From positions 30,071,985 to 30,135,984 of the forward strand of contig CAIIXF020000004.1 in NCBI GenBank assembly GCA_903813345.2: DNA of 64,000 bases. Direction: 5' to 3'. The position numbers and the translations under genes were made by a program. The notes under the pieces are model-generated. The model did not search any database. It was not told the origin of the DNA and saw only the letters and a list, made by a program, of their open reading frames with translations. This document shows, piece by piece, positions 1-59,467 of this stretch. The number at the start of each line of letters is the position of its first letter. The stretch's first letter is position 1. The stretch comes from Owenia fusiformis (lineage: Eukaryota; Annelida; Polychaeta; Sabellida; Oweniidae).

Positions 1-639
1 TGACACTTTTGGTAGAGGGCGGTCATTTTTCAAAATGGCCGCCATTTTAACGTATTTTACTATAACTCGAAAAGTAGTGGAGCGATTTTGTTCATATTCG
101 GTATGTGAATACTGTAAGCATGGCACACTGTCTAATGACACTTTTGGTAGAAGGTGGCCATTTTGAAAAATGGCGGACATTTTGAAAAATGGCTGCCATT
201 TTAACTTATTTTACTATAACTCGAAAAGTAGTGAAGCGATTTTGTTCATATTTGGAACGTGAATACGTATAAGCATGGCACACTGTCCATTGACACTTAT
301 GGTAGGAGGCGGCCATTTTTCAAAATGGCCGCCATTTTAACGTATTTTACTATAACTCGAAAAGTAGTGGAGCGATTTTGTTCATATTTGGTATGTGAAT
401 ACTATAAGCATGGCACACTGTCTAATGAGACTTTTAGTAGAAGGCGGCCATTTTTCAAAATGGCCACCATTTTAATGTATTTTACTACAACTCGAAAAGT
501 AGTAGAGCGATTTTGTTCATATTTGGTATGTGAATATTATAAGCATGGCACACTGTCTAATGACACTTTTGGTAGAAGGTGCCCCTTTTGAAAAATGTTC
601 GATGGGATTCGCTACGCTTTGGCGTTGCCGTTGTTCTGG
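1..639 (+). repeat. 135-bp tandem array ending in a Helentron-like 3' terminus (5' end outside window)
   Basis: Four units of about 135 bp begin near 1, 136, 291 and 426, with a partial fifth at 561. The second is 155 bp because it carries an extra copy of a 20-bp piece. Each unit contains an imperfect palindrome around GGCCGCCATTTT and the phrase TAACTCGAAAAGTAGTGGAG. The array stops at 597, where a 43-bp end motif begins (GTTCGATGGGAT, then the hairpin ACGC-TTTG-GCGT, then CTGG followed by TT). The same end motif closes the element at 2637. Open frames through this array are by-products of the repeat and not genes. The Helitron/Helentron assignment is an inference from the hairpin-CTRR-T ending. 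Confidence 0.6.
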
Positions 640-730: not shown

Positions 731-1127
731 ATATATAAGCACTAGTGCCAAAAGGGAAAGGACCAAAAGTTGTAATGGAACTTAACAAGAAAAAGCAAAC
801 TCTAAGTGCATACCAGTTAAGAAAAACAAACCCCATATAGCCCAAAACCATGATCTAACGTGAAAAGAAACAATGTCTAATACCCCCTTTCCCCCACCAT
901 TCAAGTACCGATATCACAATCACATTTCATTCATACTGAAGTCATTACAATACATGTTGAAGAAAAAATTAGAAATTGATAGCCAATACTCATAACCTCA
1001 AAAATTGTTGTAGATACAAGTACTCATAAAAGATAGAGCATTCAGTCTCAAATGATGTGGGATAGATTAAATCCAGTCTCCAAGTCCATAGGCATTTCAA
1101 AGGGTCAACATCCATTCACAAAAGCCG
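731..1127 (+). repeat. Dispersed ~400-bp repeat, copy 1 of 3
   Basis: This stretch is similar, in reverse orientation, to 14871-15290, and its second half is similar in the same orientation to 51150-51270. Shared landmarks are ATATATAAGCA at one end, TTCATACTGAAGTCATT in the middle and GGGTCAACATCC at the other end. No terminal inverted repeat or coding frame is obvious. The copy at 14871-15290 interrupts a tandem array, which shows that the unit moves. Confidence 0.6.
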
Positions 1128-8759: not shown

Positions 8760-9698
8760 GTTGCAACACTTTGTCACAACTACATGTTGTTGCTTGTTGG
8801 TTATTGTTTATGTCTTGGTGATTGTTTACGATATTCCCAAGTTTCTTCTGCTGTACTGCTTTTACGGAAGCCATGTCTTTTGGTTTTTCAGTCTTATCAA
8901 GAGGTGAGCTGGCTGGAGAACTAGCGTCCTTTACACGTTCTTTTGGTTTTACGGCCTCAACACAAGTCTGAAGATTTAGTGTTCTGATTTATCTCGGGAT
9001 TTGATTTTGGTTTAATTGGTACATCTTGATTTACTTGGGCCACAGTTGCTACTGAAGTCTGTGCAACTGGAGAACATGTTATGGTCAGCTTAGGCTTGTC
9101 TTTTTTAGGGATCACCACTTTTCTAGTGTATTTTGCTTTGGATTCTGTTTTACTACTTGGTAGTTTTACCGGCTGTGTCCTTGGTTTTAGATGTTCAACG
9201 ATTGGCTTGTCCAAGCCCACAATGTGTTGGTACTTAGAAATCAAGGCATCCAGTTTCTCCTCTGTGTTTGGCTTCTTGGTATATTTGTTTGGTTCACTAT
9301 TAATGATCGAATCAGGTAAACTGTCAAAGGTGAGGTATTGCATTGGATCGTACACCAATGTGCTGTCAGAATCATCATCGAAGATGTCAGGTGGACAATC
9401 AATTGGCAAATTGTCCTTTGTCCAAGGCTGTAACGGGACAATGGGCGCTACTGCAGTAGATACTGTACTGGTTAGACATTCCGCAGGAAGAGATGTTTTA
9501 GGTGTGGTAGTGGTAGGAATATAGGTGATAATAGGGCTTGCTGCTGGAGTTTGTTTGGCGTGATTCTCCTTATGACGTTGTATTTTGCCGGGATTAGACT
9601 TCAGTATACGCATCTTGCAGCCTTGCACCTCACAGGAAATATAGGAATGAAAAAGCTCGCAATGAACTTTCAGTTGATCTTCCAGTGTACACCAAGGA
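8760..9698 (-). pseudogene. Zinc-finger-type protein ORF, probably degenerate
   Basis: A 240-codon minus-strand frame runs from about 9698 to 8957. Near its N-terminus is a finger of the form C-x4-C-x14-H-x3-H (CEVQGCK...RHKENH), preceded by another Cys/His-rich stretch (CTLEDQLKVHCELFH). The rest is low-complexity, rich in Pro, Thr and Lys, with an acidic patch DIFDDDSDS. After the stop at 8957 the adjacent frame carries on with the same character (AVKPKERVKDASSPASS...NNHQDINNNQQ) to about 8760, so a one-base frameshift or a small intron is likely. It may begin at an acceptor (TTTGAAG) rather than at its first internal Met. It is unlike any transposase in the window; its function is not known. 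Confidence 0.45.
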
Positions 9699-9754
9699 CT
9701 TCAAACACAAGGACTTCAATTACTGCTGCAAACACTTCAGGTATAGCGCAACAA

Positions 9755-10040
9755 CATTGGATCCTGTCACCCCTGCATATCAAGATTTCAAAACTAACCT
9801 CCCTAAAAATATTGAGCAAACAACATTGGATCCTGTCACCCCCGCATATCAAGAACTAATAGTGACATCTATTGTGTGGGATTTAAAAACTGACCTTCCT
9901 AAAAATATTGAGCAATAATATTGGATCCTGTCACCCCTGCATATCAAGAAGTACATGTAATTGATTTTTAAAAGTGACATCTATTAATATTGTGTAGGAT
10001 TTAAAAAATGACCTCCCTACTAATATTGAGCAAACAAGAG
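9755..10040. repeat. Imperfect tandem repeat around TTGGATCCTGTCACCCC
   Basis: Three units start near 9757, 9827 and 9918. Each carries TTGGATCCTGTCACCCC and GCATATCAAGA, and most end in AATATTGAGCAA. They grow longer down the array because of extra internal sequence. The apparent ORFs across them are products of the repetition. Confidence 0.6.
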
Positions 10041-11030
10041 ATCTAATCATTGTTCATGAGGATGCATGACATAACATATATATTAAGTTCGACAAATAAT
10101 GATTTATTAATTTTGCACAACATGCAACTCCAATCATATAGCCAAGTGTTTACAGTACATGTAGCATATATGTACTATTCAATTATATCATTCTGTTTTT
10201 ACAGCAATTTGTCTTACTTTATAGTTTATATATTAGAACATTGATTGTAAGCTTTAATTGACAGATCTAGCAGTTGATTAATGTCTTGCCACATGTTATT
10301 GGTAAACATGGAACATTCAATACATCATCTACATTTATGTTTCACAGAAAATATACCTAAGTTAAAACTCCAGTAGTCTGTGAAGACCCTTTAGAAAATC
10401 CAGTGATCTACATTTAGTAGAATTATGTCATTACATCAGAAAACATCCATTCAAAATGAAATGGTCAGTATTTTCATCATGTAAACATATGAACAAACAA
10501 TAAAACACATAGAGAGGCTGATATAAACATGGCAACAGTTCTAGAATTAATATAATTCATAATTCTACAAATTGCTGCCATCTTCATATATGGCCTGAAG
10601 ACTGGTAAACAACTTACAGTACATGTATTTACAATGGACAGGGTTGCCATAAAATGTTCAAATTTCAATCCCCTGGTTTTTCTCTCAAGCATTGAATTAT
10701 TTTGCATTGATGCACTGACTTTGTATATGATTTTATTGATATCCCTTTTCTCATTTTAAGGTATATAGCCTACATTATTTACAGTTTGTGGTCTAGTTTT
10801 CAACTTTTCAATCATTCTCTCAATTAACATTCCATGACTTTATATTATAATCTTCTGACAATGATTTAGTGAAAGTATTTTTATTTTATTTTTCTAACTT
10901 TTCCTTGACTTTGGCAATTGGCAACTTGTTACCAAATGTTAAAATTTTATATATAGCCTAAATCACATTTGTGACAAATAAATTTTGTTGCCTGTTTTTT
11001 TAACTTTTCCCCATCTAGGCAAGTAGCAAC
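10041..11030. other. No gene recognised
   Basis: AT-rich DNA between the tandem repeat and the pogo-like transposase. No feature supported. Confidence 0.4.
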
Positions 11031-12363
11031 CTGCTTTACGGACACAAAATACATGCAATCCAGAAATATGCCTCCTTGTGGCTCCTATCACGGAAGTCAC
11101 TGTTCTGGCAAAGGATACAATCTGCATCCTCTTCATATTTAGAATCAGAATCATCTTCTGAAACATCACGATCTGATTCATTATCACATGTAGGCCTATC
11201 ATTTTCCTTTGCTTGACATTTTGATTTTTCTTTTATCTTTCTCTTCTTTTCTTTCATTATTTTCCTCTCTTCTTTTTCTTTCTCTAATCTTTCTTTTTCC
11301 TCACGCTTCTGTCTCTTTTCATTTAATATTTCAGGTGATGTAAGTATTCTGTGGGAATTCAATCTCCTTTTGTTAGATGATCCTGGGGTCTTGGGTTCAA
11401 CAGGAGGGATGTAAAATTCTTTATGTACAGCATCGATCGGAGAACATGAAGACACAAGGGATGAAGGAACTGGAGTGGAATTTGACATTGGAAGGGAGAT
11501 GCGGAGACAGTTGTTGTAGAGGGTCCAGGTATTGGTGACGGCATAGACATGGTTGATGTAGAGGGCCCAGGTGATGGCATAGAGGCTGCAGTTGTGGGGA
11601 CGTTACCAAATGGTGTCACACTGGAAACGTATATTCCTGCCTGCTTCAAAACATCGGTCCAGGATTTCACCATATCCTCTGAGGCATTGGGATCAGACAC
11701 TGATATTGTTCCTGAATCTTGGTCATAGATAAAAGGTAGAACATAGTCTACTTCACTGCTGATGTCGGCTGTGTTATTACTGGCCTCATTTTCTTCACCT
11801 TGACCTTGTTCATCTGCCACCCCCTCTATCACTTGGACATCAATATAATTATTGAGCTGGAAGGGTGCAGCAGCTTTGTATGCCCTGTCTGGAATGGCCG
11901 CCTGGCTGACTGGCCATAATCCAGTGCATTTGAACGATGCTTTCCAGTTAGCAATTGTAGCTTTCTTCCATACTGTTGAGAAAAGCTTTGGAAAGCTTTG
12001 TTTGTTTATTTCATGGTTTGGGTTCGCCGACATATATTTGGTACTTTCAATATCCCACTCTCTTTCAAATACACTGAAAATACCATTGTCACATGGTTGG
12101 AGATGGTGAGTGCAATGGGGGGTAGAGCTAACAGAATTATGTTTTGGGCCGCAGCATTTTCAATGAGCTCAAGGACCTCATGGCTCCCATGGCTGTCCAA
12201 GACTAGCAGTTGTGGTCTCTTGGGGCCTATATTTGGTATAAATACTGTCTTGAACCATTCCTCACAGAGCATTTCAGTCATCCATGCTCGAGCCTGATAG
12301 GTCCACACTGCTGTTGGGGGGCCTTGTTCTGAAATATATAAAAATATAAGTATCTTTCACCTG

Positions 12364-12478
12364 TCAAGTTCTGACTTAAATCAAGAGAAATCTTGATTTT
12401 TAGTCAAAACCCTAATTTTTAGAAACTCAAACTTCCTAAAAATAAGTCAAGATTTTTCTTTTAAGTTGAGAACTTTTG
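12364..12478. repeat. Small inverted repeat in a pogo copy A intron
   Basis: Arms at about 12364-12402 and 12440-12478 are inverted and similar (CAAGTTCTGACTTAAAT against AAGTTCTCAACTTAAAA on the other strand). It is probably a short MITE inserted in the intron. Confidence 0.4.
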
Positions 12479-13237
12479 GTATTTTGAAACTCCCATTAAT
12501 ACCATTGGAATAATTTGAAATGCCTGTGTTAACTCAAATTAAATCTAATTTTTAGGTGTAAATATCTTTTTATGGTAAGTTTATTTCATATTGTAAACAT
12601 TTTATATACTTTACATACATATACATACATAACACATATCTAGATACACAGATGAATATATTGTATTGAGAATATGTTGATTATATTTTACCTGTTCTCC
12701 AGTTGTAGAGAGAAGCTCTCTTCTTCCCTCGTACGACAAGCAATGGAGGTAGTGTTGTACCCGCTGCACTACCACCAGCCACACACGTCACGGACTCACG
12801 GCTGTTCGAAACACGCCCTGGTACACTACTCATCCTACTTGCAACAATTCTTGCAGGGGAGTGCTGGAACTGGATGCCCTTTTCATCCATGTTCCAGATC
12901 ATGTCCGCAGTCAGATTGTTGGTAGAGACTACATTCTCTAGGTCCTTGAAGTATTTTGACACGATGTCCTTGTCCATAAGGCGGGATCTACTTGTTGACA
13001 GCGCTTGAGGCTTTCTTAGCCTAAGTTCAGCGTGTCTACCCTTCAACCCTAGCCACCATCTCTGGAAATGTAATGATGTGAAACATTAAATGTCATCAAT
13101 TTAAAATTATTACTTGTGTTTCAAGTACATTGTACATCTGTGACCAGTGAACAATTTTTGTTGGAATTTATTTGTATTCATTTTGCTATAGCCTTAATTT
13201 TTATATCATGTTCAACTATCATCAAAAGCAAAATAGG

Positions 13238-13305
13238 GGTCCCTGTTGGAGTTGAACCAACAATACCTTGTCATGTATTACCATGAAAGATATCCCTTTG
13301 GGAGT
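13238..13305 (-). ncRNA. tRNA-like relic in the intron of pogo copy A
   Basis: A perfect T-arm lies at 13245-13261 (stem GTTGG/CCAAC, loop TTCAACT, matching the B box GGTTCAACTCC). The acceptor and D-arm halves do not pair well (at most four of seven pairs). It sits between the DNA-binding exon and the first catalytic exon, the same place as in the other pogo copies. Read on its own it is weak; its position makes it meaningful. Confidence 0.4.
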
Positions 13306-13784
13306 TAGTAACTTTGCTAAGATAATAGTCAAACAAAACATGAACAATTAGTGGTAAATTGAATCAAATGTAACTGGTCAAAGATGTAATGAATGCAACT
13401 GGAAACACAAGTAATTGGATGTGGGCGTATTAGTACGTACTTCTCCAGCCCGGCCATTTTTAAATGGATGCTCTATCTTCATTGCCTCAGCAATACGAAA
13501 TGCTTTCATGCAGATCTGGCGCTTGGTCACTCCAAATCCCTTTTCCGCTGCCAGAATAGTTTTTGATACGATAGAATCCTCAACCGCAGCTGGCAAAATT
13601 GTGGCTCTGCCACATTTATCCCCAGGTTGACAATGTCCAACCTGAAACAGTGAAACACATTTATATCACGAAAAAGTGTACCTGCACACAATGCTTGCAT
13701 ATTTTGAAATGTAACTATCTACTCTGCCTGCAGAGTCTAGTTAAATTACACTCTGCCTAAAAGAGACCATATTGCAGTTTAGTA

Positions 13785-13940
13785 GCCCCGCCCCCACGAC
13801 GGGTACCAGTGACAGTTTGGGTAATAAATCACACATAAATAAACATACGCCAAATGCGTTCTAATTAAATGTTCACATGTCATTGGTCAATTCCGGGCTC
13901 AACGATGACGTCAGAAGGAATGGCCATATATAGAATGTCG
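13785..13940 (+). promoter_or_regulatory. Promoter-like cluster upstream of pogo copy A
   Basis: A GC box (CCCCGCCCCC, about 13785), a CCAAT-type ATTGGTCAAT (about 13883), a full CRE (TGACGTCA, about 13905) and TATATAGA (about 13928) follow one another within 150 bp. The order would suit plus-strand transcription from about 13960, but no plus-strand gene follows. It may be bidirectional and serve the transposase on the minus strand. Motif evidence only. Confidence 0.35.
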
Positions 13941-14255
13941 GTCAAATTTGGCCGACGAACACTGATTGGCGCAGTGAGTTCACAGGTTTATTTTAGTTTG
14001 AAAGAGTGAAGATGAAGCTCTCTTTTAAGAAGTGAAGTCAAAAGAATGCAAAGGGTAGTAACTATCGCATATATTGTCTAAAATGTATAAAATTTACTCC
14101 AATTTGAGTGGCAATTTTCTCAAAAACCGGAGAAAACCGGAGCTTAATATCTTACAAAACCACATTTTAGGGTGTGTTTATTCAGACAAATGTGTAAAAT
14201 TAAAAAATTAAAAAAAATTAAAAATTACAAAAAATGCCAGCCATATCTTTATGTA
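13941..14255. other. No gene recognised
   Basis: Short AT-rich interval between the promoter-like cluster and the 162-bp array; nothing supported. Confidence 0.4.
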
Positions 14256-15640
14256 CCCACCACATAGTGTGGGGCCATATTGTCAGCCTAGGCGCGTCTG
14301 TCCGTCTGTCTGTCTGTCCGTCCATCCGTCGTTTTTGAGTTTTCATACTTTAACTATTTAGAAGCTTTATAAATAATTTCAGGTGTACTTTGTTGTAAAA
14401 GCCTTTGTTATTGTTAATGGTGGTTATATGTGATAATTTTGTAAAAAGAAATCAGCAAAAACTCATAATCACTTTTTTATTTTCGGCCATTTTGGATTTT
14501 TCCATACTAAAATCTTGTTTGTAAAGTCTTGTCTACATGTTTTCAGGTGAACTGTTTGGTAGATCAATTTCAAATTTTCAGGGATGATTCCTAGTATGAA
14601 AATCTAGATCTCATTAGTTTTTTGGCATTCTGGGTAAATGTCAAGGCAGCCATTTTGGATTTTCCGTCCTAAAATCTTGTCAGTTAAGTCTTGTCTACGC
14701 GTTTTCAGGTGAACCGTTTGGTAGATCAATTTCATATTTTCAGGGATGATTCTTAGTATGAAAATCTAGATCTCATCAGTTTTTTGGCATTCTTGGTAAA
14801 TGTCAAGGCAGCCATTTTGGATTTTTTGTTCTAAAATCTTGTAAGTAAAGTCTTGTCTTCGCGTTTTCTTCGGCTTTGCGAACGGATGTTGACCCTTTGA
14901 ATTGCCTATGGACTTCGAGACTGGATTTTATCTATCCCACATCATTTGAGACTGAATACTCTATCTTTTATGAGTACTAGTATCTACAACTATTTTTGAT
15001 GTAATGAGTATTGGCTATCACTTTTTTCAATTTTTCTTCAACATGTATTGTAATGACTTCAGTATGAATGAAATGTTCCTTGGTATTCTGGTCCTGGATT
15101 GTGATATTGGTTCTCGATTGGAGGGGGGAGGGGGATGTTAGAAATTGTTTCTTTTCATGTTAGATTATGGTTTTGGGATATATAGGGTCTACTTTTCTTA
15201 TGACAGATTTACACTTACAGTTTGCTTTTCTTGTTGGGGTTCTTTAAAGTTTTAAGTCACCCTTCCCTTTGGCATTCGTGCTTATATATTCAGGTGAACC
15301 GTTTGGTAGATCAATTTCAAATTTTCATGGATGATTCTTAGTATGAAAATCTTGAACTGAATAGTTTTTTGACATTCTGGGTAAATGTCAAGGCGACCAT
15401 TTTGGATTTTCCATCCTAAAATCTTGTCTGTAAAGTCTTGTTTACGTGTTTTGTGGTGAACTGTTTGACGGATCAATTTCAAATTAGAACTTACTAATTT
15501 TATGGCATTCTGGGTGCCCATTTTGTCCTCAGATAGTGTCGGTAAAGTCTTGTCTTCTCATTTTCTGGATAACCATTTGATGGGATCACCCATTGGTGGG
15601 GACATTTTGTACACATTTGTGTTCTTGTTTGATAAAGTCA
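14256..15640 (+). repeat. 162-bp tandem array element, interrupted by an insertion
   Basis: The element opens with CCCACCACATAGTGTGGGG (a hairpin) and a CCGTC-rich tract, then runs in units of 162 bp whose GCCATTTTGGAT landmarks lie at 14484, 14646 and 14808. Units contain TTTGGTAGATCAATTTCA and CTAAAATCTTGT. The array resumes after 15290 for about two further units and ends near TTGGTGGGGACATTTTGT at 15590. The inverted CCCACCA/TGGTGGG pair near the ends resembles the subterminal repeats of the element at 1580-2637. The 14871-15290 piece is a separate insertion. Confidence 0.55.
14871..15290 (-). repeat. Dispersed ~400-bp repeat, copy 2, inserted in the 162-bp array
   Basis: Reverse-orientation copy of 731-1127. 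It starts with CGGCTTTGCGAACGG and ends with GCTTATATATT. It splits a repeat unit of the surrounding array, so it inserted after the array formed. Confidence 0.6.
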
Positions 15641-16061
15641 CACAATTTTGTATCTGTTTTCCTTATATGTGAATGCATTTCCTGACTAAAGGGACATGTC
15701 AAAGAAAACTTCACATTTAAACGCATTCTTCATAACTATGAGTTGGAGGTGCATGGGTCCCTAAACAAAGCATGGAGACAGTGAAGTGAGGAAAACTTTT
15801 TAAAAATTCAAGGAGTAGGATTGCAACAGAGACACATTTTTAAGACTCCAAAATTTCCACAAATCATCTTACCTTACCAAGGAACATCAAAGGAGCATGA
15901 AAATATGTACTTCTTGCATTGTTAGAGTATGATAAAGCTCAAACCAATGTGAATTCTAAATATTTCATGTCTACCATTTTCTTTGCTGGGACTATTTTCT
16001 AGTCCAAAGTAATCATCACTGATGTATCCATTGTTTATCATTTATAAAGCCTCAATCATGT
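15641..16061. other. No gene; contains a fragment shared with 19733-19815
   Basis: The only recognisable piece is about 15719-15800 (CATAACTATGAGTTGGAGGTGCATGG...), which recurs at 19733-19815 as an insertion inside the second copy of the neighbouring duplication. Confidence 0.4.
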
Positions 16062-16193
16062 ATCTATCATGATTATTATACTGTTATAGATAAAAATATA
16101 CTAGTGATAATCCATTGTAAATAGTTAATGTTGAATTTTATAAGTTTAGACTAGAAGTTATGTTTGCAGAATATACTTAACAAAACATATAAG

Positions 16194-16260
16194 CACTTCC
16201 GTTGGAATCGAACCAACTCCTCTTGAGTTAACAAGTAATGCACCAATACACCAAGAAGTG
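16194..16260 (-). ncRNA. tRNA-like cloverleaf, pogo copy B (unit 1)
   Basis: 67 nt. The acceptor stem CACTTCT/GGAAGTG pairs over all 7 positions with one T-G wobble. The D stem is GTGT/GCAT and the T-arm is GTTGG-TTCGATT-CCAAC. The B box GGTTCGATTCC is perfect; the A box TGGTGTATTGG has one mismatch. The anticodon arm is short (CTTG-TTAACT-CAAG) and unlike a normal 7-nt anticodon loop. It lies 124 nt downstream of the DNA-binding exon. A functional tRNA is unlikely because of that arm. Confidence 0.65.
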
Positions 16261-16383
16261 GTAACTCATAACTTTGCAAATATAATCAACAAACAATAAT
16301 CAATTCAATCAAAAAAACTGCTTAGTCAATGAATCAAACCAAAAACTGAAATCCAAGTGACATCATTCTTGTGTTTAACATAC

Positions 16384-16640
16384 ATTTCCAGCCTTGCCAG
16401 TTTTCTTCCAGGATGGCAGCATGGTTATTCTCAGCCTTGAAGCTATGCGATATGCCTTCATACATAGGCCATTTACAGATATTCTGAAACCTCGTTGTGA
16501 TGCACTAGTCATCTTACCAACAATTGATGCCTTGACATCAGAAGGCACTACTGTTTTCCTCCCCCTTACATCACCAATGTTGAACTTCCCGCCACATGAT
16601 TTTGTAGCGTAGTTTTGGCATGTTAAATTGCTTTGAGGCG
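16384..16640 (-). pseudogene. Pogo-like transposase DNA-binding exon, copy B (unit 1)
   Basis: Sister of the exon at 18197-18484. It ends at a GTATGT donor just below 16384. The frame (VRGRKTVVPSDVKASIVG...) matches the second helix-turn-helix region of pogo-type transposases. It is damaged at the 5' side: GCCGCC of unit 2 is GTCGCC here, and one base is missing near 16604, which breaks the N-terminal frame. No catalytic exon follows in this unit. Confidence 0.6.
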
Positions 16641-18007
16641 ACCCTCAGACTTGACCCCATTTGACGCTGTCAACTGCTGGTGAATAACTTCTTTATTTGT
16701 ACTATTTACCACCAACTGCATATTATTGTCACTTTATTTTTGGAAAATACAAATAATGATAAATTTATTCTGCAATTCAAGTTTGTTGTGGATCCCCAAT
16801 TATATTCACCGTCCTTCCATAAAGATTCCTCAGCCTGTTTGCTGGACAGGAATCCATTTGTACCTAAAATAATACAACCGTATTGAATGATTTATGCATA
16901 ACAAATGAAAACCATCTATCATTATTTATCATCAATTATCATTGATAGAGCTGGTAGGATAAATGTTGAAATCTATAAAACAGATTATATTATTCTGTGA
17001 AGTAAATTAAATCTAATGACTGTATATCAAATGAAATATGTTTATCATTGTCTTTACATATTAGATACCCTCTATATAATTTACATGTCATTATGAAATA
17101 AAATTAAACATACATGCAAGAAATCTGAGAGCAATGTCAAAATAAGTTGTGTGGTGCTCTCTCTTGAAATCCAGGATATCAATCTTCCAGTTGTCACGCA
17201 TACCAATGTCATTATTGGTCCTCACTGCATTTTATCTGCTTTTCCATTGATGACAAACGGTGAAATATGATTAGCTGGGTGGGATTGAGTTTTCTGTCGA
17301 ATGGTCTGGCCCTTAATCTTAGTTTTTTTGCTGAGTTTGAAACTCATCAGGTTGAGATCGCCTTCATCCCACTTGCTATTGCGTTCATGTTGTTTCCTAA
17401 GAAAAGCATCATTATAACCACATACATGATGCCTTAGTGTTCGTTGGGTGTGGTCTCAGATGTGGATCATATGTTAGATCTACGCTTTAATTTCAGTCAT
17501 TGTGGCACTCTTTTGAATCGTTTGCTGTCTTATATAGCCAGATGCACTTGTCAACTGCAGGAGTGTGATCTTTTCTACTCTGGGTTTTACTTTTGATCTA
17601 TAAAACATGTTCCCCCAAGATTTATCTCATCCTGGCTACCCTTTGACGTATGGGCGTGTATATTGCTAGTCACATCCCCCGATACAGCAAGCTTATTGAC
17701 TAACTCTACCAACAGTTTATTCTTTGACAGTTCAGTTGTAGTAACTGGATTTTCCTGCATGGCTGGAGGTTTTAAAGCCCCTGAATTGTCCACAGTAGAT
17801 CTCAATAAGGTCAGGGCCGCCTCCAAGGCTCTCGTATGGCCTTTTAAAGTTTGAAATCTGACAGATCCTCAGATCCTCATGATTATTATACTGTTATAGA
17901 TAAAATATACTAGTGATAATCCATTGTAAATAGTTAATGTTGAATTTTATAAGTTTAGACTAGAAGTTATGTTTGCAGAATATACTTAACAAAACGTATA
18001 TTATAAG

Positions 18008-18074
18008 CACTTCTGTTGGAATCGAACCAACTCATCTTGAGTTAACAAGTAATGCACCAATACACCAAGAAGTG
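18008..18074 (-). ncRNA. tRNA-like cloverleaf, pogo copy B (unit 2)
   Basis: 67 nt, sister of 16194-16260. The acceptor stem is CACTTCT/AGAAGTG, fully Watson-Crick; the one base that differs from unit 1 changes a T-G pair into T-A, so pairing is kept. T-arm GTTGG-TTCGATT-CCAAC and B box GGTTCGATTCC are intact. A run of four T follows about 20 nt after the 3' end. It lies 123 nt downstream of the DNA-binding exon. Confidence 0.7.
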
Positions 18075-18196
18075 GTAACTCATAACTTTGCAAATATAAT
18101 CAACAAACAATAATCAATTCAATCAAAAAACTGCTTAGTCAATGAATCAAACCAAAAACTGAAATCCAAGTAACATCATTCTTGTGCTTAACATAC

Positions 18197-18484
18197 ATTT
18201 CCAGCCTTGCCAGTTTTCTTCCAGGATGGCAGCATGGTTATTTTCAGCCTTGAAGCTATGCAATATGCCTTCATACATAGGCCATTTACAGATATTCCAA
18301 AACCTCGTTGTGATGCACTAATCATCTTACAAACAATTGATGCATCGACATCAGAAGGCAATACAGTTTTCCTCCCCCTTACATCACCAATGTTGAACTT
18401 GCCCGCCACATGATTTTGTAGGGTAGTTTTTGGCATGTTAAATTGCTTTGAGGCGGCCCCCAGACTTGACCCCATTTGACGCTG
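18197..18484 (-). pseudogene. Pogo-like transposase DNA-binding exon, copy B (unit 2)
   Basis: A psq-type helix-turn-helix is visible (SLGAASKQFNMPKTTLQNHV), followed by GRKTVLPSDVDASIVCKM and CMKAYCIASRLKI, the usual order at the N-terminus of pogo/Tigger transposases. The exon ends at a GTATGT donor at 18196. The catalytic exons expected further along the minus strand are absent, so this is a 5' fragment. It shares about the same domain with copy A but differs in sequence, so it is a different subfamily. Confidence 0.75.
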
Positions 18485-18803
18485 TCAACTGCTGGTGAAT
18501 AACTTCTTTATTTGTACTATTTACCATCAACTGCATATTATTGTCACTTTATTTTTGGAAAATATAAAAAATGATAAATCTATTCTGCAATTCAAGTTTG
18601 TTGTGGATCCCCAATTATATTCACTGTCCTTCCATAAAGATTCCTCAGCCTGTTTGCTTGACAGGAATCCATTTGTACCTAAAAATAATACAACACCATT
18701 GAATGATTTATGCATAACAAATGAAAAACATCTATCATTATTTATCATCAATTATCATTGATAGAGCTGGTAGGATAAATGGTGAAATCTATAAAAGAGA
18801 TTA

Positions 18804-18964
18804 CAGTAAAACTTGTGTATAGTGAACATTTTTTTGCCAAGAAAAAACGTTCACTGTAGGTAGGTGTTCACTAGAGAGAGGGTAATTTATACAGAAGTCA
18901 GTGGACTATGTGCGTAGGAAGGGTGTCCACTAGGGACAGGTGTTCACTAAGACAGGTTTTACTG
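18804..18964. mobile_element. Pogo/Tigger-type MITE with TA target duplication
   Basis: A 161-bp element with inverted ends CAGTAAAACTTGTGTATAGT and CAGTAAAACCTGTCTTAGT (outer strand), flanked by TA on each side. CAGT-AAACC ends and TA duplication are typical of pogo-type MITEs. It is missing from unit 1 of the duplication, where the empty site (GATTATATTATTCTG) can be read. Confidence 0.75.
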
Positions 18965-19089
18965 TACATAATTCTTTGAAGTAAATTAAATCAAGTTAAT
19001 TAATGACTGTTTTAGTAAAAGTTTCATGTTTGAAATGTGGATATTTTTTATATCATATGAAATATGTTTATCATTGTCTTTACATATTA

Positions 19090-19960
19090 GATATCCTGTA
19101 TATAATTTACATGTCATTATGAAATAAAATTAAACATACAAGCAAGAAATCTGAGAGCAATGTCAAAATAAGTTGTGTGGTGCTCTCTCTTGAAATCCAG
19201 GATATCTATCTTCCAGTTGTCACGCATACCAATGTCATTATTGGTCCTCACTGCATTTTATCTGCTTTTCCATTGATGACAAATGGTGCAATATGATTAG
19301 CTGGATGGGATTTTTCTGTCGAAGGGTCTGGCCCTTAATCTTAGTTTTTTTGCTGAGTTTGAAACTCATCAGGTTGATATCGCCTTCATCCCACTTGCTA
19401 TTGCGTTCATGTTGTTTCCTTCGAAGAGCATCATTATAACCACATACATGATGCCTTAGTGTTTGTTTGGGTGTGGTCTCCGATGTCATATCTTAGATCT
19501 ACACATTAATTTCAGTCATTGTGGCACTCTTTTGAATCATTTGCTGTAGTATACGGCCAGATGCACTTGTCAACTGCAGGAGTGTGATCTTTTCTACTCT
19601 GGGTTTTACTTTTGATCTATAAAACATGTTCCCCCCAAGATTTATCTCATCCTGGCTATCCTTTGACGCAGGGGCACGTATATTGCTAGTCACATCTCCA
19701 GATGAAGCAAGCTTATTGACTAACTCTACCAACGCATTTCTCATAACTATGAATTGGAGGTGCATGGATCCCCAAACCTAGCATGAAGAGTGTGAAGTGA
19801 GGCTACTTTTTAACAGTTTAGTTCAGTTGTCGTAACTGGATTGTCCTGCATGACTGGAGGTTGTAAAGCCCCTGGGTTGTCCACAGTAGATCTCAATTGG
19901 GTCAGGGCCGCCTCCAAGGCTCTAGTATGGCCTTTTAAAGTTTTAAATCTGCCAGATCCT
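19090..19960 (-). pseudogene. 3' exons of the homeodomain/HMG gene, degenerate (copied at 17100-17870)
   Basis: Minus-strand coding-like segments in order: TLKGHTRALEAALTQLRSTV, then LVELVNKLASSGDVTSN...DEINLGG, then RVEKITLLQLTSASG, then CGYNDALRRKQHERNSKWDE, then DNWKIDILDFKREHHTTYF ending at a GTATGT donor near 19140. The pieces lie in more than one frame, so frameshifts have accumulated. The same segments recur with changes in unit 1. I do not recognise these domains. They are assigned to the upstream gene only by strand, order and spacing. Confidence 0.4.
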
Positions 19961-20047
19961 CAGAGGTCATTAGCAATAATGCTGCTTTAATGTATAAACC
20001 CTCACTGACAAGAGCTGTCTAATGTCCTCATGAAGCTCATTTAATTC

Positions 20048-20220
20048 TCCCCACTTAGATAAGGCCATAAAAGTAAGATTCTTTGGTTTGCGTCCCCTTG
20101 CTTGTACAATTTTGAGTAAATCAAAAAAAGCAAACACATCCAAATAGCTATCACAATGGTCTGAAAGTATACCATCGCATTTCCTTCAATTAGAATCAGA
20201 CGAAATGGCGAATAATTTAA
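20048..20220 (+). repeat. Half copy of the 29383-29828 TIR element
   Basis: Starts near AAGGCCATAA and matches the left 170 bp of the element at 29383, including TTCTTTG and GTCCCCTTGCTTG. It lies in the last intron of the homeodomain/HMG gene. The right half and right terminal repeat are absent. Confidence 0.55.
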
Positions 20221-21103
20221 GTTAATGGAACTTAAAATCTTACATCTGTACTTACCTCCATCAACCATGCCTTTCAAGGCCTGCCTTACTTCTCCAACTA
20301 TGGTCTTTCTGTCAGTCCCACTATCACTGGAGTTTGGAGCTGGATGTTCCCCTTTTACTACAAAACAATTTGACAACATACAAATATTTGAGAAAATTAC
20401 TTCATAAAACAAGTAAGAAGATAATATGAACTACTACTGCACATTTTCCTAAGGATAATATAAATTACAGACGAATATTTTCTATATTTTGCATTTCCCA
20501 AGTTTTGGATAATTCCCGAAATATAATAAGCATGCAATATCAATATCCTAGTTCTTCTAAATTATAGCCAATAAATAACTGCAACATTTCAAGATCGCAA
20601 AAATGTCATAGGTATACTTACTAATGTTGAGGGAAAATGCATCTTTTAGTGGCTCAATGCCCAGCGTCCCATTGCTTGTGCCAAATGATGTGAAATTGTT
20701 TCCAAATATGGAAAAAACCCCGATTTCACCTCCAAACTGTTGTATTAAATCACACTGAAACAATACAAGAAATGTGAGATAAATATGTCTTCATTAAATA
20801 GAGAATAAGGTAAAGAAGTTTATTACAAAATTTCTTAGTTAGATTTTTGAATGCTTGGCTCAGTCTGGCACTGTATTAATATTCTATAAATACTGATCCG
20901 GACAGTATCAAAGTAAAATTTAGTATCAAAGCACAGGGCCATCACAGTATCAAAGTAATATTTAGTATCAAAGCACAGGGAGCGTAACAGTAAAATAATA
21001 AATTCAAACTAACAGCACTGCAAACTTTTCCATTCACAATTTCAAGGGGGAAAATTGTAATGAATTGTATGATGAAATGTTTAAAAACAATCATACGATG
21101 AAA

Positions 21104-32800: not shown

Positions 32801-34548
32801 AGATGATATATACTTTTTTTATTTTATAAAGAAGTATTCACAATTTTTTTCTAAGGAGTATTTGCAATGGAAATGAATTGCAGTTTCTGATGGGCGCACA
32901 TAGACATCAGCTTCTTTCTAGCAATTTAAGGTTCTTCCTTCCTCAAAAATCTTCATCGCCATTTCCAGAAACTTGTACAACTTCACTTTTAGCATCATTC
33001 AAAACATGGACTTTCAATAGATGGAAATGTGCTGCTAGCAAGTGGAGCTTTAAGTTTGGCAGTTGAAATTTACTGCACAAACTCATGCTCTGCTTGACCA
33101 ATACAGCTCATTGTCACTTTGCCTATTAGAAAATGCTGCATGTATATTTGATGAATGTTGCTAATTATAAAATGTGTTATAGAAGCAGGCTAAGCAGTGA
33201 CAAAAAAGTGTCAAAGTGACAGTATTTGAAACAAACTACCTATGCCAAGAATATTTTTTTAGTAAAAGTACAACTGTAGTCTAATTTATCACCAGCATTT
33301 CCAGAAAAATGGCCCCACTGGAACAGTTGTTCAGACATTCTGGACCAAGGTCCTTGCTGATTTTAAAAACAATCCTTTAATCACAGCACCCAGAGGAAAT
33401 AAAAATTCAAAGTTGATTTCCTTGATATATAATTCAACTCTTTATACAACTAAGTAGAGCAACAAAGCCCACCAAACAAAACATTGTTTATAAATTCACT
33501 CGACATGCAATTGCCATCAATTTTCTCAGGAGTTGTTTCAGCTGCTGGTTGTCCAGATATGCGGCTTTGAGGTGTTCTAATTTGATACTTCTCCAAATAG
33601 TCTTGCAAAAGTGGAAAAATGATCAAAATGATATTTTTTTTCAAAATTTTAAAGCAATATATAACTTGTTCTAGCCAAATCAAGCTTCTTGAGTGGACTT
33701 TGAATCCTTGAAGCTTATGGTTCACTCTATTAGGTACATCATAGTAGAACAATCTGGACTTCCAATGACTCTTGGATTGTCATAAATATTTGTGGAATAT
33801 CATTAACATTATTGGATTAACATCATTGATTGTCATCATTGATTTGATACAAGAATTACAACATATTTTTTTGTATATTATTATCTCATTTAGTATTTTT
33901 AAAATATAGTACTGTACATAGTTATATTTTAATTGCTGTTTTAACCTTCTGTTATCATTGAACGCAACAGTTGGCAAGATGAATTTTCTTACACGATAAC
34001 GTTTGGGATAAAATTGTGTCCAAAAATAGTCTTATCTATAATCCTATATCCATCCTTTTCCTCCTTTTTCTCCAGTTTTATGGTTACCTTCGGGTACTTC
34101 AGGTAATTCACCTGTTATGTTTTCACTAGATCTAATGGAAGCCTTGTATTGTTGGTAATGACATTTTGTAATTCAAGTACGATATTGTTTTTTTCTGAAC
34201 TTCACGGGTTTCCATTCATTGAACGCTTTAAATCAAGGCATATTTGCAGATAAAATTAAGAACTTGTTAAAGTTTTAATATTTGCTGCCAATGCAGTGCT
34301 GGCAGTCAGGACACATTTTTGGCCATTTTTACGCAATGTTTTTCAAATTTTTTTAAATGTTGTTTAGCCAGTTCGTGTCTGTCATGTAAATTAATTTACA
34401 TCATTGTAATATACTTATTTTTTAATATATTTCTTGTATATTTCAAAACTTCATGAAGGTAAAAACAATATCAAAATTTCCAAGCCTTTTGAACTTGGTG
34501 CAGATCATTGTAAAGCTGATATCACATTTCATTCTCGTTTATTTATAC
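29829..34548. other. Gene-poor interval
   Basis: No supported gene. Hydrophobic or AT-rich open frames (30583-30955, 31915-32175, 33450-33752) show no domain or convincing splice set. Three copies of a 17-18-bp unit (AGTGTCACAACAG) lie at about 31818-31860. Confidence 0.35.
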
Positions 34549-35431
34549 CTCTTTGAGCTATAACCTTTACAAGTTTATGCTGAAGCATAAGCCCCTTCTC
34601 ATCTAGATTCCAGATTACTCTATCTGTCAGATTATTTTGGTTTATGATATCTTCCAGATTTGCAAAGTAATGTCTCATGGCCTCATTGCTTATTGCTGCT
34701 CTATTTGCAGTTAGGGCCTCTGGTCTTCTGATTGTGATTCCGAGATGATGTCTTTTGAAACCATTGAACCAATCCTGGTTAGATTTTATATAAAATAATT
34801 TACCAAACATTTTTTCACAGACATTTTAGTTTTTTACTTTGGCTTTATATCTATATTGTTTAGTTTTGAGAACACTTGATGTTGTATTTTTTAGATTAAA
34901 TATACAGGTATCTAATAAAATTTATTCCAGTTTTGCTATTTAGTATATTATGTTGCAATTCTGTCTCTTGTTGGACTTGAACCAACACCTTTTATCCAGG
35001 TACGGTTGAATATGCTACCATTACACTAAAAAGACCTGATATTTACAACCATAAATAAAAAGAACAAAACTGTTACATCAATTGAAATTTTAAGCACCAA
35101 GTTGGAATCGAAAAACACCAAGTTGAAATCAAAACTCAACAATGTAATATAGGAGGATAATACAGGAGTATTATCTTAGCATCCTTCTGAAAACAATTAT
35201 ATGAGATTTGAAGTATGTATTTTCCCTGCATGTACTTATACTAAATACCTACCTCTCAGCAACATAGTCAGTTAAAGTAGCACATGGTATATTATGCCGC
35301 CTCGCTGCCTGGGCCACCTCGCTGCCGTTGCCACCTTGGCCATATCATCGATTGGTGTTCTGCATATCATCCTCTTTATAAGTGGACCTGAAGGCCCCTT
35401 TCTATTTATATATTTGCGAGGCATTCTGTAC
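34549..35431 (-). mobile_element. Pogo-like transposase, copy C1 (5' half)
   Basis: The first exon starts at ATG 35431 (MPRKYINRKGPSGP), shifts frame near 35320, and continues as a psq helix-turn-helix (EVAQAARRHNIPCATLTDYV) to a GTAGGT donor at about 35252. The second recognised exon, 34774-34549, reads DWFNGFKRHHLGITIRRPEA and the first catalytic Asp in VIWNLDEKGLMLQHK, and ends at GTATAA. The other catalytic exons were not found in the next kilobase. It is closely related to copy C2 at 55528-59209. A tRNA-like sequence lies between its two exons. Confidence 0.7.
34963..35035 (-). ncRNA. tRNA-like cloverleaf, pogo copy C1
   Basis: 73 nt. The acceptor stem GTCTTTT/AAGAGAC pairs at all seven positions (one T-G). 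D stem GTGT/GCAT, T-arm GTTGG-TTCAAGT-CCAAC. The A box TAGTGTAATGG and B box GGTTCAAGTCC both match the pol III consensus. The anticodon arm pairs ATTCA/TGGAT with an 8-nt loop lacking the usual T33, so decoding function is doubtful. It lies in the intron between the helix-turn-helix and first catalytic exons. Confidence 0.75.
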
Positions 35432-58870: not shown

Positions 58871-59094
58871 AGTAACTTTAGTGATTCTAGACATGGCAGA
58901 CAAGCTTAGTACTGTAGTAAGGTATCTGAAAAGAAACAATGTATGAATTTGTTTATCATTTATTTATACCTCTTTGAGCTATAACCTTTACAAGTTTGTG
59001 CTGAAGCATAAGCTCCTTCTCATCTAGATTCCAGATTACTCTATCCGTTAGATTATTTTGGATTATTTTCAGATTTGCAAAGTAGTCTCTCATT

Positions 59095-59160
59095 TGTCGC
59101 TCTATTTGTCACTCTATTTGTCGCTCTATTTGCCGCTCTATTTGCCGCTCTATTTGCAGT
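59095..59160 (-). repeat. In-frame 12-bp expansion in pogo copy C2 exon 1
   Basis: About five to six copies of ATTTGYCGCTCT. On the minus strand each unit is four codons (N-R-A-A/T). Copy C1 has a single unit at this place (34694-34716), so the expansion is specific to C2. It replaces part of the segment that reads AISNEAMRHYFANL in C1. Confidence 0.7.
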
Positions 59161-59397
59161 TAGGGCCTCTGGTCTTCTGATTGTGTCTTTTAAAACCATT
59201 GAACCAATCCTGTTTAGATTTTATATAAAATAATTTACCAAACATTTTTCAGACATTTTTTTTTTTTTTTTTTTTTTACTTTGGCTTATATCTATATTGT
59301 TTAATTTCGAGAACACTTGATGTTATATTTTTTAGATTAAACAGGTATCTAATAAAAAATTAGTCCAGTTTTGCTATTTTTTATGTGTTGCAATGCT

Positions 59398-59467
59398 GTC
59401 TCTTGTTGGACTTGAACCAACACCTTTCATCCAGTTACGGTTGAATATGCTACCAATTACACTAAAG
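59398..59467 (-). ncRNA. tRNA-like sequence, pogo copy C2 (eroded)
   Basis: Sister of 34963-35035. T-arm GTTGG-TTCAAGT-CCAAC and B box are intact, and the A box TAGTGTAATTGG has one extra T. The 5' acceptor strand has lost two T and changed one base (GGCCTTTAG against GGTCTTTTTAG), so the stem no longer pairs. It lies upstream of the first catalytic exon. Confidence 0.55.

Follow-up and report, generated by a model that had tools for sequence, protein, structure and literature searches.

A tRNA-like cloverleaf with covarying stems in an intron of pogo-type transposase genes

A tRNA-like cloverleaf was found on the sense strand of pogo-type transposase genes, in the intron between the helix-turn-helix (HTH) exon and the first catalytic (D1) exon, in 20 copies belonging to seven subfamilies; the proposal of such an element in the initial annotation of this DNA holds, with a stronger case than was made there. 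Its place and strand are constant, the cloverleaf covaries, the A box and the B-box core are nearly constant, and the element changes more slowly than the intron flanks and the coding exon. We regard it, with a probability of about 0.58, as an inherited and selected tRNA mimic that resides in an intron of a pogo-type transposase lineage. A single gain, predating the split of at least seven subfamilies, is probable, with the element then passed on at the same site and on the sense strand.

We analyzed a stretch of 64 kb (C4:30071985-30135984; hereafter, the window) within a genome of 498 Mb. The following transposase exons were located in the window:

13438..13665, minus strand, copy A HTH exon
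12690..13061, minus strand, copy A first catalytic (D1) exon
12054..12329, minus strand, copy A second catalytic exon, Pfam DDE_1
16384..16669, minus strand, copy B1 HTH exon, disrupted
18197..18484, minus strand, copy B2 HTH exon
34538..34777, minus strand, copy C1 D1 exon
58959..59212, minus strand, copy C2 D1 exon, disrupted

Window copy A matched DDE_1 with 55.3 bits (cut-off 22), and a fuller relative, L017 at C10:31.9 Mb, matched HTH_psq with 22.5 bits (cut-off 20.4) and DDE_1 with 66.1 bits; Pfam gave no match for the other four window exons submitted or for the D1 exon of L017. Judging by the predicted HTH_psq/CENP-B-type N part and DDE_1 catalytic domain, the bearer genes belong to the pogo superfamily. 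The locus L017:5842-7386 (minus strand) encodes a pogo-type protein in which a repeat-rich linker is followed by a C-terminal PHD-like finger (just under the Pfam cut-off); the same domain pair was present in protein P0006. The joint across the intron in L017 would read KAGN-DWWLG. The element-bearing intron is very likely real, because the predicted Patella and Mytilus proteins P0003 and P0001 continue through the same joint (PGN-DWW, PGD-DWW). The search for terminal inverted repeats gave nothing above shuffles near A or C23, and only a 29-bp match without TA for B10. Repeated units spaced by 162 and 585 bp (TTTTGGATTTTCC..CTAAAATCTTG) were observed at window positions 14491-15600, and two T-arm-like repeats (L057:1003 and 1374) were found ahead of a D2 exon in another pogo intron.

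The Rfam tRNA model RF00005 had two matches in the window, one of 47.5 bits at 34962-35035 and one of 33 bits at 59402-59467, both on the minus strand, which is that of the transposase. No other Rfam family exceeded its own cut-off in the 64 kb. ARAGORN predicted tRNAs at 16193-16260, 18007-18074, and 34962-35035. The tRNA-like elements of the window are as follows:

34963..35035, minus strand, copy C1 element with acceptor stem GTCTTTT/AAGAGAC, A box, and T-arm GTTGG/CCAAC (Rfam 47.5 bits, ARAGORN, genome copies)
59402..59467, minus strand, copy C2 element with degenerate acceptor stem (Rfam 33 bits, alignment)
16194..16260, minus strand, copy B1 element (ARAGORN, A/B-box pattern match)
18008..18074, minus strand, copy B2 element (ARAGORN, A/B-box pattern match)
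13236..13303, minus strand, copy A degenerate element: T-arm at 13245-13261 and one further arm, no D-arm or A box

Several details of the initial annotation had to be revised. Of the tRNA-like part placed at 13245-13261 in copy A, the T-arm is present and the full cloverleaf is not: the D-arm with the A box was lost in all three subfamily A copies found, while the T-arm and another arm were retained. The cloverleaf of C2 has a degenerate acceptor stem in the alignment. The element of copy C1 had been placed between HTH and D1 exons; no HTH exon was detected upstream of this copy within the window, and the order of HTH exon, tRNA-like part, and D1 exon is seen in its fuller relative L023. Among the copies scanned, the gathering cut-off of RF00005 (29 bits) was passed by C, D, E (L064, L068), F, and J copies and was not reached by A or B copies, E_L066 (24.6 bits), or L080 (23.8 bits).

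Protein searches with the HTH exon of L017 (17 matches) and with the E exon (24 rows) resulted in 24 distinct HTH-exon loci. The objection that most other family copies might lack the element was not borne out: a tRNA-like element was present downstream in 14 loci (B 3, A 2, both degenerate, C 1, E 3, F 3, J 2) and absent from 7 loci of other subfamilies, and 3 loci (L073, L075, L089) were broken off before it. The loci without the element comprised subfamily G (L070 and L071, with D1 directly after HTH and no intron there, and their relative L074), H (L072, with a 690-nt intron), K (L084 and L085, with an intron of ~265 nt by eye), and L088, with a weak D1. No tRNA-like part was found in the D1-only fragments L078, L079, L086, and L087; L079 retained only a piece resembling, by eye, the 3' end of the A intron, and the other three had no matching intron.

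With the copies found by DNA and pattern searches added, 20 bearers in pogo context were counted (A 3, B 3, C 4, D 2, E 3, F 3, J 2), five of them degenerate (A 3, C2, E_L066). Strand and order were consistent in 20/20. Both flanking exons were detected in nine bearers (A_win, A_L015, B_L017, C_L002/L023, C_L003, E_L064, E_L068, F_L065, J_L076), the HTH exon only in seven, and the D1 exon only in four. The D1 exon was not found in L067 or L069, whose homology with L065 stops at the 3' end of the intron.

A strict A-box/B-box pattern had 15 matches in the whole genome and none with the reversed-pattern control; 10 were located in the HTH–D1 intron, two were solo units (L005 and L080), and three belonged to another tRNA-like family (L081-L083). 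A looser pattern gave 28 matches in 498 Mb (control 0): 15 in the HTH–D1 intron, one solo (L005), none to L006 or L080, and 12 others resembling ordinary tRNAs or two further tRNA-like families, of which L081-L083 were inspected together with their surroundings. The exact T-arm occurred 17 times: 11 times in the HTH–D1 intron, once before a D2 exon (L057), once in the vault-like L059, and four times in an unrelated repeat; with one mismatch allowed, it had 31 genome matches, of which four were inspected.

Covariation was analyzed for the acceptor, D, and T stems in 13 distinct sequences of six subfamilies, leaving out the three A copies, C2 (L004), E_L066, L080, and identical rows. The covarying stems claimed initially were confirmed: standard pairs occupied 99.0% of 208 cells (41–56% with partners slid by 1–3 columns), and two-sided changes occurred in 9/16 pairs and 28 cells (shuffle means of 5.3 and 9.0), all these figures being inflated by kinship among rows. 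The number of pair types did not exceed that in shuffles (17 vs. 16.8; 312/500 shuffles). Variation affected every one of the seven acceptor pairs and, in the T stem, the three outer pairs; none was seen in D pairs 2–4 or in the two T pairs that belong to the B box. Between C and B, only 3/7 acceptor pairs differ on both sides, fewer than the seven claimed at first, and the pair-preserving difference between B1 and B2 is indeed present as one T-G/T-A change. The T-arm GTTGG/CCAAC, shared by all five window elements in the initial annotation, is not general, being replaced by ATCGG/CCGGT in E and ACTGG/CCAGT in F. Among cloverleaf copies, the A box and the B-box core hardly vary, the A box being GTGTAATGG except in subfamily B (GTGTATTGG); the T-loop deviates in C_L006.

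Since MAFFT misaligned the anticodon arm in A3, this arm was omitted from the covariation count and scored in hand-set blocks of six representatives. It had 28/30 standard pairs, a score that none of 720 permutations other than the true pairing attained; in the same blocks, the acceptor stem had 41/42 (4/720 permutations as good) and the T stem 30/30 (24/720). The "anticodon" given by ARAGORN had two letters (6-nt loop) in B, D, E, F, and J and four letters (8-nt loop) in C1; the loop was of 6 nt in C by the hand-set blocks and in A by eye. A 7-nt anticodon loop with U33, as required for decoding, was not found; therefore, the element does not decode, a point missed in the initial annotation, and a decoding tRNA gene is ruled out by the loop size. 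A chance tRNA-like sequence is ruled out by the empty controls of both patterns together with the stem covariation. Folded alone, the tRNA-like parts had z values from -1.2 to -4.2. The preservation of shape while the letters change suggests a job as RNA or as a promoter.

Divergence was calculated for one pair each of B, E, F, J, and C, with A and D left out. Divergent sites numbered 4/347 in the tRNA-like part, 73/1271 in the intron flanks, and 121/1136 in the HTH exon; without CpG sites, these values were 1/331 (0.3%), 71/1266 (5.6%), and 92/1064, respectively. The difference between the tRNA-like part and the intron had p values of 5.8e-5 for all sites and 7.4e-7 for the CpG-free counts. 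In 19 within-subfamily pairs, which are non-independent and do not include A, C2, and E_L066, 54/1346 sites (4.0%) diverged in the tRNA-like part, 253/2250 upstream, and 265/2285 downstream. Relative to the HTH exon, divergence is faster in the flanks of subfamily C and about equally fast in the downstream flank of B and J. Stops were present in the HTH exon of several compared copies; therefore, the tRNA-like element outlasts the code. Gene conversion among copies could be an alternative source of the slow change.

The distance from the splice donor to the element was 122–123 nt in B, 115–117 in C, 122–124 in E, 136 in F_L065 (from which the donor positions of F_L067 and F_L069 were set), and 81 in J, with subfamily D (~424 nt) as an outlier. 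In a tree of HTH and D1 exons, a branch (70/70; 78% of bootstraps, 0/500 shuffles) separated the seven bearer subfamilies from the rest, with several rows short and only 1/11 inner branches well supported. These distances and the clustering of bearers fit one gain followed by inheritance. Independent SINE insertions at differing positions, named in the initial annotation as what would overturn its claim, were not borne out by the data: B, C, E, and F keep the distance within 115–136 nt, J (81) and D (~424) being the exceptions, and target duplications, sought by eye in the solo copies L005 and L006, were not seen in these two. Separate SINE insertions were not adopted as the main reading, since the copies agree in strand and order and, for the most part, in donor distance. 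The three solo units speak for mobility: L006 (C4:24.004 Mb) is a C-type arm-to-arm unit lying, by eye, within an AAGTACAAGTGAAATATTTAG-like minisatellite, L005 is the inner unit alone, and L080 consists of arms and cloverleaf with no exons detected. Neither L006 nor L005 had exon homology above shuffles.

Pairing between the two flanks of the element can form a hairpin that carries the cloverleaf at the tip, a structure missed in the initial annotation. Two such structures were delimited in the window:

13109..13415, minus strand, copy A intron hairpin with arms at ~13373-13415 and 13109-13157 and the tRNA-like part at the tip (repeat search, self-alignment, fold z -8.2, duplex z -7.8)
34845..35151, minus strand, copy C1 intron inverted repeat enclosing the tRNA-like part, with outer arms and inner CAGTTTTG/CAAAACTG

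Pairing of 120 nt on each side of the cloverleaf was compared with that of shuffled flanks (200 shuffles). It beat the shuffles in 7/7 subfamily representatives, with z values of -7.8 (A), -3.1 (B), -5.0 (C), -3.5 (D), -2.3 (E), -4.5 (F), and -2.7 (J); shuffles as low were found for E (5/200) and B (1/200) and for none of the others. The solo units L006 and L080 had z values of -4.4 and -2.0, respectively. Folding of the whole intron or a stretch of ~390 nt gave z values of -8.2 (A), -2.5 (B), -2.0 (C), and -1.9 (D). Shorter whole stretches were unexceptional, shuffles being as low in 24/100 cases for D, 60/100 for J, and 21/100 for L080. Arms of different subfamilies did not align above shuffles, except A-left with B-left.

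Regarding pol III features, A and B boxes at tRNA spacing were present in the elements except for the A copies, C2, and E_L066; E_L066, like the A copies, has lost the A box. The first TTTT downstream was near in A (+5), B (+14), D (+30), and J (+36) and distant in C_L002 (+164), F (+171), and E (+172); thus, not all subfamilies fit the picture of a self-contained pol III gene.

It is possible, at slightly less than even odds, that the built-in intron tRNA mimic is an RNA regulatory domain, under stronger selection than the protein code and acting via the tRNA-processing or pol III machinery. RNA of the element would be made as part of the transposase pre-mRNA, perhaps with additional transcription from the element's own putative pol III type-2 promoter, and would fold into a tRNA-like L. 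The most likely role might be that of a cis-acting brake or switch on the transposase, a suggestion which is itself doubtful. Splicing across the intron would face competition from bound TFIIIC and pol III, or from tRNA-end enzymes that cut the intron before it is spliced, and such competition would hold the transposase output low or restrict it to certain cells.

It is unlikely that a self-mobile tRNA-bearing foldback element (MITE- or SINE-like) settled in the intron, with the transposase family as its vehicle and the stems kept for the needs of the mobile unit. The flank pairing in all seven subfamilies agrees with such an origin, as do the arm-to-arm unit L006 and the inner unit L005, both lacking exon homology above shuffles, and L080, with its arms and cloverleaf outside any detected exons. 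However, 15 of the 16 pogo-type matches to the looser pattern, which misses L006 and L080, are located in the intron and only L005 outside it; neither strand nor order differs among the seven subfamilies; the donor distance is similar in B, C, E, and F, with J and D deviating; and the bearers cluster in the tree. The same flank pairing in 7/7 representatives is consistent with a hairpin serving splicing only, with the intron looped out by the pairing of its flanks and the cloverleaf acting as a stable cap, and the pairing is strongest in A, where the A box was lost. This explanation is very unlikely, as a plain stem would not need a near-constant D-stem, T-loop, and box sequences.

The chances are slimmer still for a host-tRNA-derived insertion captured once in the ancestral intron and now drifting without function. 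Parts of the element have been lost in A, C2, and E_L066, and its A box, which we take to resemble that of an ordinary tRNA, also counts for this origin; against it stand the two-sided changes in 9/16 pairs at 99% pairing and the divergence of 0.3% vs. 5.6% outside CpG sites. We retain the inherited and selected tRNA mimic as the main reading. If the element acts as RNA, it would represent a new route of self-control for a transposase of the cut-and-paste type and a natural tRNA mimic evolving under selection outside translation. The 20 copies in seven subfamilies are a ready comparative set for the meeting of TFIIIC, RNase P/Z, and splicing in one intron.

Among the matches listed in full-text literature (subscription papers and Repbase being outside this scope), an element of this kind was found neither in a pogo transposon nor in any other DNA transposon. 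The tRNA-like ends of MALAT1 and NEAT1 (mascRNA, menRNA) are non-decoding tRNA mimics inside a longer pol II RNA and form the 3' ends of their host lncRNAs. The pogo-type element resembles them as a non-decoding tRNA mimic, here predicted within a longer RNA, but sits in a transposase intron, at the tip of a hairpin. SINEs derived from tRNA have A and B boxes in a tRNA-like body, as does the pogo-type element; unlike them, the latter is nearly confined to one intron, no tail was noticed, and the whole cloverleaf covaries. Vault RNA genes also share internal A/B boxes and the lack of decoding. The vault RNA model RF00006 matched L059 only and none of the pogo copies scanned, so vault RNA was rejected; L059 (C7, ~2.369 Mb) contains two inverted vault-RNA-like stretches, at 269-385 (minus strand) and 978-1095 (plus strand), with 42 and 38.2 bits, respectively.

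Other tRNA-like families were also present in the genome. One of them, GGTGTAATGGATAGCACTTCGGACTCGTGTCCG-like, includes L081-L083 and C9:14640140; the flanks of L081-L083 are similar by eye, with T-runs near in two. A third family was found among the looser-pattern matches at C1:9078417, C2:5946272, C8:32664951, and C12:11919968, 3/4 of them with a longer middle part. Finally, a repeat with a tRNA-like part and a Helenus-like look was observed at L051-L055 (C11, C7, C10, C5), and in L053 two ~235-bp copies (TGTAACG..ATTACA) enclose what by eye are PBS- and PPT-like stretches.

Helenus TRIMs are LTR elements with a tRNA-like, pol III-type promoter sequence, PBS, and PPT (Kojima 2024, PMC10886601), and, among the matches listed, they are the closest system in print, being mobile elements with a tRNA-like, pol III-type sequence. 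The pogo-type bearers differ in having an intron and a gene for a DDE transposase. In window positions 9500-21000, none of the 20 largest of 51 direct-repeat families was an LTR pair that frames A or B, and a Helenus-like LTR identity fits L051-L055. With pogo superfamily transposases, L017 shares the HTH_psq and DDE_1 domains and window copy A the DDE_1 domain; the bearers differ from them in the intron element and in the PHD-like finger at the C end of L017.
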